DNA of 32,868 nucleotides from an uncultured Lentisphaerota bacterium (GTDB taxonomy: Bacteria > Verrucomicrobiota > Lentisphaeria > Oligosphaerales > CAITYL01). How positions within the stretch are numbered: position 1 is the stretch's first letter; the number at the start of each line of letters is the position of its first letter. Made by a program: the position numbers and the translations under genes. The stretch covers positions 1-32,868 of the forward strand of contig CAITSE010000035.1 in NCBI GenBank assembly GCA_903894975.1. Direction: 5' to 3'. Under the pieces are notes generated by a model. That model saw only the letters and a list, made by a program, of their open reading frames with translations, had not been told where the DNA came from and did not search any database. Shown piece after piece: positions 3,701 through 28,705 of this stretch.

Positions 3701-4613
3701 GCGCTTCCGCGATGTGGAGATCAACCACCAGGAAATCATGAAGCGCCTGCAGGAGAGCGAGGGTGGCGATCCCGGCGTGGTCAAGAGCGCCAAGGTCTAC
3801 ATCGCCAGCCGCCGCAAGATATCCGTCGGTGACAAGATGGCCGGACGCCACGGCAATAAGGGCATCGTTGCCCGTATCGTGCCGCAGGAAGACCTGCCCT
3901 TCATGGCCGACGGCACCCCGGTCGACATCGTGCTCAATCCGCTCGGCGTGCCGAGCCGCATGAACGTCGGCCAAGTTCTGGAAACGCATCTCGGCTGGGC
4001 CGCCAAGATCCTCGGCCTCAAGTTCGCCTCGCCGGTCTTCGATGGCATCCCCGAGGAAGAGATTCACAAGTATCTGCGCATTGCCAAGGAAAAAGTGGTC
4101 AAGGACGCCGGCTGGAAGCTTCGCGCCGATGGGCACGTTTCCGACTCCGAGGGGCGTGACCGCTCCGAAAGCGTGGTCGACGACGATGGCAAGACCCGTC
4201 TCTTCGACGGCCGCAATGGCGACTCCTTCGCCCAGCGCGTCGTGGTCGGCCAGATCTACATGATCAAGCTTGACCATATGGTGGTGGACAAGATCCATGC
4301 CCGCGCCGTCGGCCCCTACTCCCTGGTCACCCAGCAACCGCTGGGCGGCAAAGCGCAGCACGGCGGCCAGCGGTTCGGCGAAATGGAAGTGTGGGCGCTG
4401 GAGGCCTATGGCGCCGCGCACACTCTCCAGGAAATGCTCACCGTCAAGTCCGATGACGTCACCGGCCGCACCAAGATCTACGAGTCAATCCTGCGCGGGC
4501 AGAATTTCCTCGAAGCCGGCGTGCCGGAATCGTTCAACGTGTTAATGAAGGAAATGCAGAGCCTCTGCCTGGACATCCGGGTCCGGCGCGGCCGCGCCGC
4601 CGAGGCGGTGTGA
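756..4613 (+). CDS. rpoB: DNA-directed RNA polymerase subunit beta
   Basis: A 1285-residue beta subunit of the core RNA polymerase. Recognisable blocks in order are the Arg-rich DRRRRRRKFLISTFLRALG segment near residue 190, the rifampicin-pocket region at 449-475 followed by RVCPIETPEGPNIGLISSLA, the FEDAIIINEKLV block, the DKMAGRHGNKGIVARI block (active-site lysines), and the C-terminal QPLGGKAQHGGQRFGEMEVW and SDDVTGRTKIYE motifs that contact beta-prime. The ATG at 756 follows a weak AGGGTGGA (746-753). An unusual feature is Asn465 (codon 2148-2150), where E. coli has His526, a rifampicin-contact position; the equivalents of Asp516 and Ser531 are unchanged. It is followed after 80 nt by rpoC, and a small GC hairpin (4615-4629) sits in that spacer. 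Confidence 0.99.
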   Translation: MAADRIIFGKIKEVLDIPDLIAIQTESYVDFLQKDIPPEKRKTQGLQEVFKEIFPIESFDQQCVLDFVRYELGECKGDLLKCLKDGGTFAAPLYVVFRLQTPRDTKEETVYMGDIPLMTDNGGFVINGASRVIISQLHRSPGICFEKTRHPSGRMLYSYRVIPDRGSWMEVQFDINDLIWIYLDRRRRRRKFLISTFLRALGTATNRDLLHSVYGVQDMPLSKLLKAENPAELFTAETVVSPADPETVLVPELEPLNPKVLESLKKAEVKTVAVVDTRGLGEYFVQCVKRDTTKDTDDALKEIYRRLRPGDPPNVNNAKQLLKRLFFSARRYDLGLVGRFKINQKLGINVPTDVRTLDVQDLVGATQFLMRLKNGDGAVDDIDHLGSRRVRTVGELMQNQCRVGLLRTERLVRERMTLIDMESEDVVPGKLVNPKAFAGVIRDFFARNQLSQYMDQTNALAELTNKRRLSALGPGGLTRERAGFEVRDVHASHYGRVCPIETPEGPNIGLISSLALYGRVNAFGFIETPYRKAANGVVSEKIDYLTADVESEFSIAQANAPLDPKGRFQNKTVVCRVKGGEFVEVPADKVDYMDVSPKQLVSAAAGLVPFLEHNDANRALMGSNMQRQAVPLVRAEAPVVGTGLESVVARFSRTVVCSESDGTVASSNAERIIITKDGKLPGQTSQPDSVREYILSKFLRSNASTLINQKPVVKRGDKIKKGQVLADGASTDHGEMAIGRNLTVAFMPWCGYNFEDAIIINEKLVREDVFTSINISEFDIIARDTKLGPEEITRDIPNIGEEALRNLDSEGIIRIGAEVKPGDILVGKITPKSETELAPEERLLRAIFGEKAADVKDSSLYVPSGTDGIVMDVRIERRFDPTKQKASKVELKRKIQEAEASFKSQFNELAEELTEKLAAVLLGAKLQADITLADKEGEVLIPANRKITKVMLRKLSINREGYRLGAGPAKEQIDEIVKPYRPRFRDVEINHQEIMKRLQESEGGDPGVVKSAKVYIASRRKISVGDKMAGRHGNKGIVARIVPQEDLPFMADGTPVDIVLNPLGVPSRMNVGQVLETHLGWAAKILGLKFASPVFDGIPEEEIHKYLRIAKEKVVKDAGWKLRADGHVSDSEGRDRSESVVDDDGKTRLFDGRNGDSFAQRVVVGQIYMIKLDHMVVDKIHARAVGPYSLVTQQPLGGKAQHGGQRFGEMEVWALEAYGAAHTLQEMLTVKSDDVTGRTKIYESILRGQNFLEAGVPESFNVLMKEMQSLCLDIRVRRGRAAEAV

Positions 4614-4693
4614 TGCCGCCCCGGGCGGCGGACGGACGAAAACAGGCATACGAAGGTTTCTTTTTTCTACTTTGACAACTGGAGGGCTCTCCC

Positions 4694-8893
<4,200 letters not shown>

Positions 8894-23709: not shown

Positions 23710-24711
23710 TCAGAGGACTTCCACCGGTTCCCAATGCCCGGACTTGGCGGAGGCGTAGGCGGAGGCCATAATCGCCACGGAGTCCAGGGCCGCGGCCAGG
23801 TCCAGCGCCTGTTCGGCGGGGTCGAGTTTCCCCGCGATGGCGGCCAGCAAGCGGGGGATACGATCGGGGTGCGCGTCCGCCGCCGGTACCGGCTCGGACT
23901 TCTGCCCCGGGGCGCCCCAGACCAGGCCGGCCGGGGTGTTCCACAGCGACTTTTCCGACCCGATGACCTCCAGCCCGCCCGGCGCGCCGGTGAAGACCCA
24001 GCCGGCCTCGACCCGGCCGAGCACGCCAGAGGCGAAGCGCATCAACAACAAACCATAGTCATCAACCGCGGCGTAGTGCCCGGACCAGTTGCCGGTCACG
24101 GCCCACACCTCCCGGACCGGGCCGAACAGCCAACGCAGCAGATGCACGGCGTGCGTCCCCATATCCAACAGCGCCCCGCCGCCGGAGAGTTCCGGCTGGG
24201 CGAACCAGGCCTTGTCGGGCGAATCGAACCAGCGGCCGTAGGCGGCGTTGTGGGCGTTGCGGAAGGTTGTGTGGGTAACCTTGCCCAGGGCGCAGCGGGC
24301 CAGCAGTTCCATGACGCCGCGGTTGCCGGCGTTGAACGGCTGGAAGTAGCCGTTGGTCAGGCAGGGATGGTGGCGGCGCACCAGGGCCGCCACGGCCCGG
24401 GCGTCGGCCACGGTCGTGGCCAGCGGTTTTTCGCACATCACCGGCCGGCCCGCGGCCAGCGCCTTTTCCAGCAACGGCAGGTGCCGGTTGTTCTCGGCGC
24501 AGATGACAAAGCCCGCGACCGCCGAATCCCCAAGCACGGCGGCCAAGTCCGGATTGAACGTACAGTTGAACTCCTTGGCGTGGGCTTGTCCCCGCTCCGG
24601 GATGTCATCCCAGATAACGGGAACCTCCAGGCCGCCGGGCTGCTCCTGCAGCGTCTTGAGAAACATGCGGCTGTGGACATGGGCGGTGGAGAGCACGGCG
24701 ATGCGGGACAT
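23710..24711 (-). CDS. Gfo/Idh/MocA family oxidoreductase
   Basis: A 333-residue predicted sugar or inositol dehydrogenase-like protein. The N-terminal Rossmann domain carries the family EKP motif (Glu94-Lys95-Pro96 in VMCEKPLATT). The C-terminal alpha/beta domain has GGGALLDMGTHAVHLLRWLF with Asp183 and His187 in the catalytic positions. The first strand is followed by LSTAHVHSR, not the usual GxGxxG dinucleotide loop, so cofactor binding may differ or the protein belongs to a divergent subgroup. GAGG lies 7 nt before the ATG on this strand. The substrate is unknown. Confidence 0.9.
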   Translation of the reverse strand: MSRIAVLSTAHVHSRMFLKTLQEQPGGLEVPVIWDDIPERGQAHAKEFNCTFNPDLAAVLGDSAVAGFVICAENNRHLPLLEKALAAGRPVMCEKPLATTVADARAVAALVRRHHPCLTNGYFQPFNAGNRGVMELLARCALGKVTHTTFRNAHNAAYGRWFDSPDKAWFAQPELSGGGALLDMGTHAVHLLRWLFGPVREVWAVTGNWSGHYAAVDDYGLLLMRFASGVLGRVEAGWVFTGAPGGLEVIGSEKSLWNTPAGLVWGAPGQKSEPVPAADAHPDRIPRLLAAIAGKLDPAEQALDLAAALDSVAIMASAYASAKSGHWEPVEVL

Positions 24712-24883
24712 GGCGGGACCTCACGGTTTTTGCCCGGGCCTGATCTTACCGGGGGTTTAAAACTCAGGGTAAAGAATACCACACTTTCACAAATCCGCCC
24801 GCCGGCACCGCTCCGGCGCCGGATTATGGTATGCCTCCCGCGCCCCGTTCCCTTCACTCGTCCCCGTTTTCCTTGATTTATAT

Positions 24884-25606
24884 ATGTCCGACCCCCTTTC
24901 CCGCTGCCTCGCCCGCGCCGCCGCCGCCGGCCGCGACGGCATGCGCCGCAATCTCAAGCCCGGTATCCTGCTCTGGCTGCTGGGGCTCGCCCTGGTCCTG
25001 GCCTACTACCACCTGCCGGCGCTGCGCCCCGCCTATGACACGGTGCGCGACTGGAAACTCCGGGGCGGGTTCGCCTTCTCCGCCCTCAGCAGCGCCTTGT
25101 GCGGCGGTTTGATCCCGTTCGTCGTCGAACTCGCCGCCGGCCGCATCCCGCGCCGGGGCTGGCTTGCCGCGGGCGCGTTCTTGATTCTTTTCTGGGTCTA
25201 CCGCGGGGTTGAGGTGGATGCCTTCTACCGGCTTCAAGGGTTCTGCTTCGGCAACGACCCCGGTGTACGCACCGTCGCCTGCAAGACCGCCGCTGACATG
25301 CTCGGGTACACCGCATTCTGGAGCATCCCCACCACCACCCTCGCCTATTTTCTGGCCCACGAATGCGGCTGGGACTTCGCCCGGTTCCGGGCCGGCCTGG
25401 ACCGGGAAATGCTCCTGGTGAAAATCCCCGCCCTGATTCTGGCCGCCTGGGCGGTGTGGGCGCCGTCGGTCTGCATCATCTACAGTATGCCGGCGCCGCT
25501 GCAAGTGCCGCTGTTTTCAGTCGTGCTCTGCTTCTGGGTGCTGCTGGTCAACCTCATGAACCCCGCCGTCACCAAGACCGTCACCGCCGGGAACGCTTCT
25601 TCATGA
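24884..25606 (+). CDS. polytopic membrane protein, unknown (weak Mpv17-like pattern)
   Basis: A 240-residue protein with about six hydrophobic segments: residues 27-44, 61-83, 93-108, 139-156, 178-198 and 204-222. The last pair, IPALILAAWAVWAPSVCIIY and VPLFSVVLCFWVLLVNLMNP, loosely resembles the W-x-P...FW end of Mpv17/PMP22 proteins; this is a tentative impression only. The ATG at 24884 has no Shine-Dalgarno (upstream is T-rich, TTGATTTATAT). It is 90 bp upstream of the caspase-like lipoprotein in the same direction, though that gene appears to have its own promoter. Confidence 0.65.
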   Translation: MSDPLSRCLARAAAAGRDGMRRNLKPGILLWLLGLALVLAYYHLPALRPAYDTVRDWKLRGGFAFSALSSALCGGLIPFVVELAAGRIPRRGWLAAGAFLILFWVYRGVEVDAFYRLQGFCFGNDPGVRTVACKTAADMLGYTAFWSIPTTTLAYFLAHECGWDFARFRAGLDREMLLVKIPALILAAWAVWAPSVCIIYSMPAPLQVPLFSVVLCFWVLLVNLMNPAVTKTVTAGNASS

Positions 25607-25619
25607 AACGGCTTGAAGC

Positions 25620-25648
25620 TTGGTATTTCCGCGGCCAGTTTCTATATT
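25620..25648 (+). promoter_or_regulatory. probable promoter of the caspase-like gene
   Basis: The -35 box TTGGTA (25620-25625, 4 of 6) and -10 box TATATT (25643-25648, 5 of 6) are 17 bp apart. Initiation near 25655 would give a leader of about 42 nt. It lies entirely in the gap after the membrane-protein gene, in an unusually AT-rich patch. Confidence 0.5.
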
Positions 25649-25696
25649 GATATTCACCAACCAGACCAACACAAGCCCGACAAAAGGATGGACGAT

Positions 25697-27256
25697 ATGC
25701 GTTTAAATTGGCAAGCCTTCTGCATCGCCATCGCACTGACACTCGTCGGGATGGGCTGTACCCACGACCTCGAAGTCCGCAACCTGCGCCAATACAAGGT
25801 CGCCTACCACCAAGGCCTGCCCAAAGCCCTGGCCATCGGCGTTGACTACAAGGGCGACGACGAGGAGTGCGGCCGTCTTGTCGCCGCCGTCGCCGACGCG
25901 CTCTACAAGTACAACGCCAGCTCCCAGTACCCGTATGTCCCCAGTGCCTATCGACAGGTGGACGTCATCGCCGAGGTCAAGGTGGCCCCTGACTACAGCG
26001 GTTCCGCCTGGAATTATTTCATCACCTTCCCCGGCTGCCTGATCTTCGCCCCCGCCTGGAACGGCATGGTCTATTCGGTGGACTACGTCTTCACCGTCTC
26101 CCTGTTCAACGGCGGCGACCACGGCCAGATCGGCGAACTCCAGATTCCCGTCCGGCTCAATCTGCGCCACGCCGACGGCGGCCGCACTTGGACCACGGCC
26201 ATGTGGATCCCCGGCATCGCCCTCACCCCGCTCCACGGGATCTACAACATCACTTATGACAGCGACGCCACGGAACTGGTCGTCGACAAGATCTCCGCCC
26301 AGGTCGGCGACTACATCGCCGGCAAGATCACCGAGCGCATCATCACCGTCGGTGTCGGCATGAAACCCATCAATCCCGGCAAAAAGGGCGGCCCCTCCTT
26401 CGATTCCCCGTCACAGCCCTCCCTCCTGCGCAGCAGCAACGCCGCGCCGACGGCGCCCGGAGCCGCCCCGAAAACTGCACCCACACCCGGCGGCGTCACC
26501 ATCCCGGCCACCACCGGCAAGTCCGCGGTCGCCACCCTGCCCCCCGCCGAGGCCGGCGCGGAAACCTACGCCCTGGTCATCGGCATCAACGACTACACCT
26601 CCCTCACCCCGCTCTCCACCCCCCTCAACGACTCCAGGGCCGTGGCCGACGTCCTGCGCAAGCGCTACGGCTGCAAGGTGATGTCCCTTGAAAATCCCAC
26701 TCGTGCCGAAATCTTCGACGCCCTCGCCACCTGCCGCACCACCCTCGCCCCCGACAGCCGGTTCATCCTCTATTACGCCGGCCATGGCTGGAACGACGAA
26801 AAAGCCAAGGAAGGCTACTGGCTCCCCGTCGATGCCGAGGAAGGCAACAAAGCCAACTGGATCCCCCATTCCTCCATCACCGCCGAACTCTGCGCCATCC
26901 CCGCCAAGCAGATCTTGGTCATCTCCGACAGTTGCTACGCCGGCATCATGACCCGCGGCTTGGCCTTCTCCGACAAACCGACCGACAAAAAGGTCCGCGT
27001 CGCCCTGCTCTCCGGCGGCAACGAACCCGTCGCCGACTCCGGCGCCAATGCCGGCCATTCCGTGTTCGCCGCCGCCCTGCTCGACACCCTCCAAAGCAGC
27101 AACGGCCAGCTCAGCGGCAACGCCTTGTGGAAGACGGTCAAAGACCGCGTCAAGAACACGTCCGACCAGACTCCCCAGTTCAGCCCCATGTTCAAGGCCG
27201 GACACGAGGACGGCGACTTCTTCTTCGACGCCGCATCTCGCCCCGTCGCCCCATAA
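25697..27256 (+). CDS. lipoprotein with C-terminal caspase-like (peptidase C14) domain
   Basis: A 519-residue protein with an N-terminal lipoprotein-type signal (MRLNWQAFCIAIALTLVGMGC, likely lipidated Cys21). Residues about 25-215 form a domain I do not recognise; a Pro/Ala/Thr-rich linker runs from about 235 to 285. The caspase-fold domain starts at YALVIGINDYTSLTPL and has both catalytic residues: His363 in LYYAGHGW and Cys413 in VISDSCYAG. These are signatures of metacaspase/orthocaspase-like C14 peptidases, which cut after basic or acidic residues depending on subfamily. The start is ATG 25697, with AAAAGG 9 nt upstream; ATG 25688 is too close to that site. Lipidation would place the protease outside the cytoplasm. 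Its targets are unknown. Confidence 0.85.
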   Translation: MRLNWQAFCIAIALTLVGMGCTHDLEVRNLRQYKVAYHQGLPKALAIGVDYKGDDEECGRLVAAVADALYKYNASSQYPYVPSAYRQVDVIAEVKVAPDYSGSAWNYFITFPGCLIFAPAWNGMVYSVDYVFTVSLFNGGDHGQIGELQIPVRLNLRHADGGRTWTTAMWIPGIALTPLHGIYNITYDSDATELVVDKISAQVGDYIAGKITERIITVGVGMKPINPGKKGGPSFDSPSQPSLLRSSNAAPTAPGAAPKTAPTPGGVTIPATTGKSAVATLPPAEAGAETYALVIGINDYTSLTPLSTPLNDSRAVADVLRKRYGCKVMSLENPTRAEIFDALATCRTTLAPDSRFILYYAGHGWNDEKAKEGYWLPVDAEEGNKANWIPHSSITAELCAIPAKQILVISDSCYAGIMTRGLAFSDKPTDKKVRVALLSGGNEPVADSGANAGHSVFAAALLDTLQSSNGQLSGNALWKTVKDRVKNTSDQTPQFSPMFKAGHEDGDFFFDAASRPVAP

Positions 27257-27595: not shown

Positions 27596-28705
27596 TCACT
27601 CCGGATACAGCCGCGCCGGATGCGTCCGCGCCGCGAACTCCGCCAGAACGGGGCGCAACGACTCCAGGTAGGCAAGAATGTCTAGGGCGCGCAGGCGTTC
27701 CGGGGTCCAGGCGCCGTTGTCCAGCCACACGGCAAAGCCGGGCTTGAGTTCGAACTCTTGCGGGTACAGCCGCGCCAGTTCCTGAAGAATGACGAACTGG
27801 GTCCGGACCGGGTCCGGCCGCGCCGCGGCGTCGAACATCAGATGCACACCGCCGCAGACCTGGCCGGCGAACTTGTTGAAGGCCGGCGCAAAATAGATCT
27901 CGCGGAAATACACGCCCGGCAGCTTCCGGGCGTTCAACGCCGCGGCCAGCGTTTCCGGCCGAATGAAGGGCGCGCCGATGAACTCGAAGGGCCGGCAAGT
28001 GCCGCGCCCTTCCGCCACCGTAGTCGCCTGGAGAATGCCGGTGCAGGCATAGGCCAGGATGGAATCCGGCGAGGGCAGATTGGGCGACGGCGGAATCCAG
28101 GGCAGTCCCGTGGCCGCCCACGGCATGCTCCGCGTCCAGCACTGCGCCGGCAGCACATGCAGGTCCAGTTCCGGGAACTGTTCCTGTTTCAGCCACAGAC
28201 CGAGTTCGCCATGGGTCAGCGCCGGCAGCATCGGAAAGGGCAAAGGGAAAAACTGCGCCGCCACCGGCCCCGCCGCGCCGAGCCAAGCCAGGGGAGACGG
28301 CCGGTCAAGCACGACCACGGCCTTGCCGCGCACCGCCGCCGTGGCCATCAGTTCGGCTAGAGCCCAGTGAAAGGTATAAGCGCGGTGGGAGGCGTCCTGG
28401 GCGCAGAACACCGCCACGTCCACCGCCTCCCAGAACGCGTCCGGCACGGTCTTGCGCTCACCGTAAAAACTGAACACCGGCAGGCCGGTGGCGCGGTCGG
28501 CGTAGGATTCCACATGCACGCCATCCTGGAGTTCGCCGCGCAGGCCGTGTTCCAGCGCCAGGAAGGCGCGCACGTCACCGGCGACGGCCGGGCACTCGGT
28601 CAGCGCCGCCTGCCGCTGCGGCAGCCACGCCGCCGGCGTCACGGCCAGCCCGACGCGCCGGGCGCCGATGCTTTTGTGCAACGCCTCCAGATCAAACGTA
28701 ACCAT
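27596..28705 (-). CDS. NamZ-type exo-beta-N-acetylmuramidase (DUF1343)
   Basis: A 369-residue member of the family whose characterised member, B. subtilis NamZ, removes terminal N-acetylmuramic acid from peptidoglycan fragments. The family motifs appear in order: ALEHGLRGELQDG, ATGLPVFSFYG, AYTFHWALAELM, VVLDRPSPL (Ser where Asn is usual), LTHGELGLW, PSPNLPSPDS, VAEGRGTCRPFEFIGAPFI and AFNKFAGQVCGGVHL. The ATG at 28705 has AAAGGGA about 7 nt upstream. The N-terminus (MVTFDLEALHKSIGARRVGL) lacks any signal peptide, while many relatives are exported; it may act on recycled muropeptides in the cytoplasm. It is convergent with the caspase-like gene. Confidence 0.88.
   Translation of the reverse strand: MVTFDLEALHKSIGARRVGLAVTPAAWLPQRQAALTECPAVAGDVRAFLALEHGLRGELQDGVHVESYADRATGLPVFSFYGERKTVPDAFWEAVDVAVFCAQDASHRAYTFHWALAELMATAAVRGKAVVVLDRPSPLAWLGAAGPVAAQFFPLPFPMLPALTHGELGLWLKQEQFPELDLHVLPAQCWTRSMPWAATGLPWIPPSPNLPSPDSILAYACTGILQATTVAEGRGTCRPFEFIGAPFIRPETLAAALNARKLPGVYFREIYFAPAFNKFAGQVCGGVHLMFDAAARPDPVRTQFVILQELARLYPQEFELKPGFAVWLDNGAWTPERLRALDILAYLESLRPVLAEFAARTHPARLYPE

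Follow-up and report, generated by a model that had tools for sequence, protein, structure and literature searches.

A putative lipoprotein caspase of an uncultured Lentisphaerota bacterium carries an unnamed N-terminal domain with a predicted LptE/CsgG/PelC/PqiC-type fold

An open reading frame within the window, the whole stretch of 32,868 nucleotides analysed here from an uncultured Lentisphaerota bacterium, encodes a protein that is best explained, with a probability of about 0.6, as an exported lipoprotein in which a domain of the LptE/CsgG/PelC/PqiC type, lipidated at Cys21 and probably located at the outer membrane, carries a linker-borne C14 protease that cleaves after Arg or Lys. The protein has a lipobox, an N-terminal domain with a predicted lipoprotein fold, a low-complexity linker and a caspase domain with its catalytic dyad intact (Table 1), and the same N-terminal domain is fused to a different caspase in a second genome. 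In the mechanism proposed here, the N-terminal domain would be held by its lipid in the membrane as an anchor or assembly platform, possibly oligomerising into a ring or complex that holds the protease, and a flexible linker of about 70 residues would carry the protease with its His363/Cys413 dyad. Its substrates would be envelope or surface proteins, cut after a basic P1 residue and processed as by lipid-anchored C11 proteases such as fragipain.

Table 1. Positions of the protease gene, its parts and the HExxH lipoprotein genes discussed in the text
Feature	Position	Strand	Basis
Whole gene, 519-residue lipoprotein-type protease	25697..27256	+	Open frame and translation, stop codon included
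Possible sigma-70-like promoter, TTGGTA-17-TATATT	25620..25648	+	9/12 consensus match, weak
Lipoprotein signal peptide, residues 1-20, VGMG before Cys21	25697..25756	+	Sequence; homologue conservation; hydropathy
N-terminal domain, residues 21-218, predicted LptE/CsgG/PelC/PqiC-type fold, unnamed family	25757..26350	+	AlphaFold2, Foldseek, homologues
Low-complexity linker, residues 219-287	26351..26557	+	Composition
C14 caspase domain, residues 291-497, with His363 and Cys413	26567..27187	+	Pfam PF00656, E 6.2e-23; MALT1 alignment
HExxH lipoprotein (candidate metallopeptidase)	L036:2141-3019; L038:5306-6226; L046:6635-7528; L054 about 4485-5972	+ (all)	HE[GA]GH

An earlier, sequence-only reading of the DNA had the coordinates and length of the gene and the positions of His363 (YYAGHGW) and Cys413 (SDSCYAG) exactly right. 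The start at 25697 has a Shine-Dalgarno-like AGGA about 8 nt upstream, a spacing that would shrink to about 2 nt from the alternative ATG at 25691. The AT-rich leader noted in that reading is likewise real, with a GC content of 47% against 63% in the surroundings and only 2% of the window's 90-mers equally low. The promoter of its own and the independent control that were proposed for the gene did not fare as well, as they come down to one weak sigma-70-like match, where 0.4 matches of such quality are expected in the 2.3 kb scanned. Two genes lie just upstream on the same strand (23734-24876 and 24884-25606, neither matching a Pfam or NCBIfam family), and the convergent downstream gene (27596-28705, minus strand) encodes a NamZ-type exo-β-N-acetylmuramidase (PF07075, PF20732), a peptidoglycan-turnover enzyme. 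The protease matches nothing in PADLOC except the general caspase model, and the three neighbouring genes that were scanned match no defence model.

The protease is probably exported and lipid-anchored with its dyad intact, as had been proposed from its lipoprotein-type signal. The signal MRLNWQAFCIAIALTLVGMG, followed by Cys21, satisfies a PROSITE-type lipobox rule applied by eye, the N-terminus as a whole (MRLNWQAFCIAIALTLVGMGC) agrees with the lipoprotein rule and residues 6-20 have a mean hydropathy of 1.89. Assignment of Cys21 as the lipobox cysteine is supported by its conservation among homologous domains, Gly-Cys being invariant in the first 12 aligned and the cysteine at least 90% conserved in 32. 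The opposite view, that the caspase is cytoplasmic and the protein neither lipidated nor exported in this organism, would fit the failure to find Lsp (PF01252) and LolA (PF03548) in the window's genome bin (4.46 Mb in 376 contigs, 89% complete). However, Lgt is present in the same bin, the lipobox is conserved across the domain family and Lsp occurs in 14 of 15 relatives, which makes a cytoplasmic location very improbable; given the relatives, the missing Lsp is most simply put down to a gap in the assembly.

The N-terminal domain was modelled by AlphaFold2 as a monomer from a 32-sequence alignment with high confidence (pLDDT 89.2, pTM 0.86). A Foldseek search of the PDB with this model returned LptE, CsgG, HpaA, PelC, the PqiC-type structure 2iqi, TraT and FlgT, with E-values down to 1.9e-5, probabilities up to 1.00 and TM-scores by target up to 0.68; nearly all matches are outer-membrane lipoproteins. 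Full-query TM-scores to known lipoproteins do not exceed 0.45, and it is therefore only the core fold that the domain and these proteins have in common. The fold group to which the model belongs suggests that the protease probably has an outer-membrane address. Several members of the group build rings, such as the PqiC octamer and the PelC dodecamer (PMC10897342). Shared with the group are the predicted core fold and the lipid anchor, whereas a sequence match is lacking, the insertions differ and the matched structures have no protease domain.

The sequence-only reading had considered this domain as a possible sensor or substrate-recruitment module; in such a role it would turn on the caspase upon an envelope signal. 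Caspases are frequently fused to sensing modules, the second fusion described below lies just before a gene for a CHASE2 sensor-domain protein, and the highly conserved aromatic and Gly residues of the domain could make a binding site. Yet the lipoproteins of the matched fold group serve as anchors, form rings or act in transport, and the domain itself is mostly found without a caspase, usually as a protein of its own. A sensory role is consequently hard to favour, and on the model the domain fits the description of an LptE/CsgG/PelC/PqiC-type lipoprotein fold better than that of a dedicated sensor.

The suggestion that the domain could be a new family has held up in that no named family was matched in Pfam (including 12 family members scanned at E up to 1), in NCBIfam or, by profile search, among PDB sequences. 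Homologues occur in at least five phyla of the genome collections searched, namely Verrucomicrobiota/Kiritimatiellota, Thermodesulfobacteriota, Nitrospinota, Omnitrophota and Planctomycetota, with a patchy distribution of 11 in 388 genomes of the phylum sample and 2 in 198 of the class. The family signature consists of the lipobox cysteine followed by Ser/Thr/Ala-His, a β-α-β core and an aromatic segment like GSGWNFLINWPGFLIWTPAWHGYVY. Read by eye, the sequences show the domain making up the whole lipoprotein in most members, with a short SHOCT-like tail added in some. In the genome that contains the window, one further protein (L003) carries a copy of the domain 40% identical to that of the protease followed by a different C-terminal piece, and another lipoprotein (L002) carries a caspase 65% identical to the window's. 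The N-terminus of L002 was considered as a homologue of the domain, but its order of strands and helices is similar only by eye and the assignment is unsupported. Close to the domain gene in three loci (L033:6694-7341, L035:6763-7455 and L044:1845-2657) lies a second unnamed lipoprotein family with a GC[AC].FP.N.LP motif and the hydrophobic insert GLSLYIIPSWATD; other neighbours of the domain gene include the small lipoprotein families DUF2846 and DUF4410.

Pairing of the N-terminal domain with a caspase recurs in the metagenome-assembled genome SZUA-191, where a second fusion with an intact dyad directly follows a standalone copy of the domain and precedes a CHASE2 gene. The stretch with the caspase fusion and then the CHASE2 sensor-domain protein spans L057:807-3814, and a pairing of CHASE2 with a caspase is known from a cyanobacterial fusion (PMC3501461). 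In the tree of the N-terminal domain, several deep branches of which are weakly supported and in which the SZUA-191 fusion forms a long branch, the two fusions fall in separate clades, and their caspase domains are 28% identical. It is likely from this separation in the tree and the low identity that the fusion arose twice.

A conserved HExxH lipoprotein is encoded beside the domain gene in four other loci, which occupy three places in the tree: L036 (Nitrospinota), L038 (an uncultured bacterium), L046 (Omnitrophota) and L054 (a deltaproteobacterium). The lipoprotein has an HE[GA]GH motif with a Glu 31 residues past the first His and matches no Pfam family, and it may represent a putative metallopeptidase family. 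Its association with the N-terminal domain is no more than a lead, noticed post hoc, and a search of the genome that contains the window yielded no HExxH lipoprotein of this kind. A broader reading, speculative and rather unlikely as a whole, is that the domain serves envelope proteases in general as a platform at the outer membrane. Separate lineages would have fused it to caspases and placed its gene next to those of HExxH metallopeptidases, and a lipoprotein ring or complex would thus present a caspase at the outer membrane.

At the other extreme the fusion could be a modular accident, in which a lipoprotein was borrowed merely as export signal and tether and the N-terminal domain plays no part in regulation, assembly or substrate choice. 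The rarity of the domain in the class, its joining to C-terminal pieces as varied as the SHOCT-like tails and the L003 extension, and the L002 paralogue, whose 65% identical caspase follows an N-terminus that cannot be recognised as this domain, all speak for such an accident. SZUA-191 shows the same pairing, however, with a caspase of low similarity, both dyads intact and a different clade in the domain tree, and in four more loci the domain gene has an HExxH lipoprotein gene as its neighbour; we regard an accident as a minority explanation, doubtful in the face of this recurrence. The reading of the domain as anchor or assembly platform of an envelope protease is the one retained here.

The linker that would join the two parts has 69 residues, including 13 Pro, 11 Ala, 10 Gly, 7 Thr and 7 Ser. 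Behind it, the Peptidase_C14 profile (PF00656) scores 82.1 bits against a cutoff of 21.4, which confirms the C14 caspase-like domain recognised earlier, and the intact dyad aligns with the dyads of relatives. Single-sequence AlphaFold2 prediction of the full-length protein reached a pLDDT of 38 and gave no usable caspase model or domain arrangement. By sequence, the caspase domain has its best PDB match in human MALT1 (E 6e-4, about 95 residues aligned), whose specificity for arginine at P1 has been ascribed to Asp365, Asp462 and Glu500 (PMC4357240). Asp312 aligns with MALT1 Asp365, Asp411, two residues before the catalytic cysteine, corresponds to Asp462 by position, and Glu443 may tentatively be the counterpart of Glu500. 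Orthocaspases are described as cutting after positively charged residues (PMC6426788); a search of the literature for P1 wording on MaOC1 found none. As these S1-type residues match those of MALT1 and orthocaspases cut after positive residues, we infer that the window's protease probably cleaves after Arg or Lys. MALT1, with which the acidic S1 positions are shared, is a eukaryotic and cytosolic protein, unlike the protein described here. Two other assignments were rejected: the protease may work like the C11 enzymes clostripain and fragipain but does not belong to C11, the Pfam scan having given only PF00656 and a sub-threshold Raptor_N, and it falls below the cutoff for EACC1-associated caspases (NF047832, 68.4 bits against 140).

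An exported caspase is less uncommon than the sequence-only reading supposed. A crude signal-peptide rule marked 23 of the 48 caspase open reading frames in the fetched loci and a lipobox in 5, some frames being copies or pieces of the same gene. Among 671 prokaryotic homologues surveyed, 46 have a lone N-terminal helix, a possible signal peptide, ahead of the caspase domain (PMC3501461), and the Bacteroidales C11 proteases of the fragipain type are outer-membrane lipoproteins that cleave after Arg or Lys (PMC11169675). Export is already known for a minority of caspases, and lipid anchoring within clan CD is established in the form of the C11 proteases. Within the class, 17 of the 149 sampled genomes encode C14 proteins, and one genome of the same order (G003, loci L015-L020, contig 37) has at least nine C14-type matches, with many of them clustered on a single contig and most starting with a signal-like N-terminus. 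A search for relatives of the protein gave none on viral contigs, and on plasmids it recovered the caspase part alone, most closely (35-37% identity) in Azospirillum genes annotated as filamentous haemagglutinin N-terminal domain proteins.

With the prokaryotic C14 homologues (orthocaspases or bacterial metacaspases) the window's protease shares PF00656, the His-Cys dyad and the S1-type Asp, but most of those described have no known localisation, in contrast to a protein with a lipoprotein signal and an LptE/PqiC-type domain in front (PMC3501461). Fragipain and DpnB of the Bacteroidales offer a functional parallel as clan CD cysteine proteases of the lipoprotein kind, outer-membrane anchored and cutting after Arg or Lys; they belong to family C11 rather than C14, and the accessible part of the source describes no N-terminal LptE/PqiC-type domain for them (PMC11169675). 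Two things appear to be new, the coupling of a caspase to a lipoprotein domain of the LptE/PqiC type and the identification of the unnamed domain family itself; neither is described in the literature searched, a search that leaves their absence unproven.

Bacterial caspase homologues are mostly discussed for cell death and phage defence. A caspase placed on an outer-membrane lipoprotein fold suggests that such an enzyme may instead process proteins of the envelope or surface, a role parallel to that of the C11 lipoprotein proteases, and yields a testable starting point for an unnamed lipoprotein family that extends across at least five phyla.
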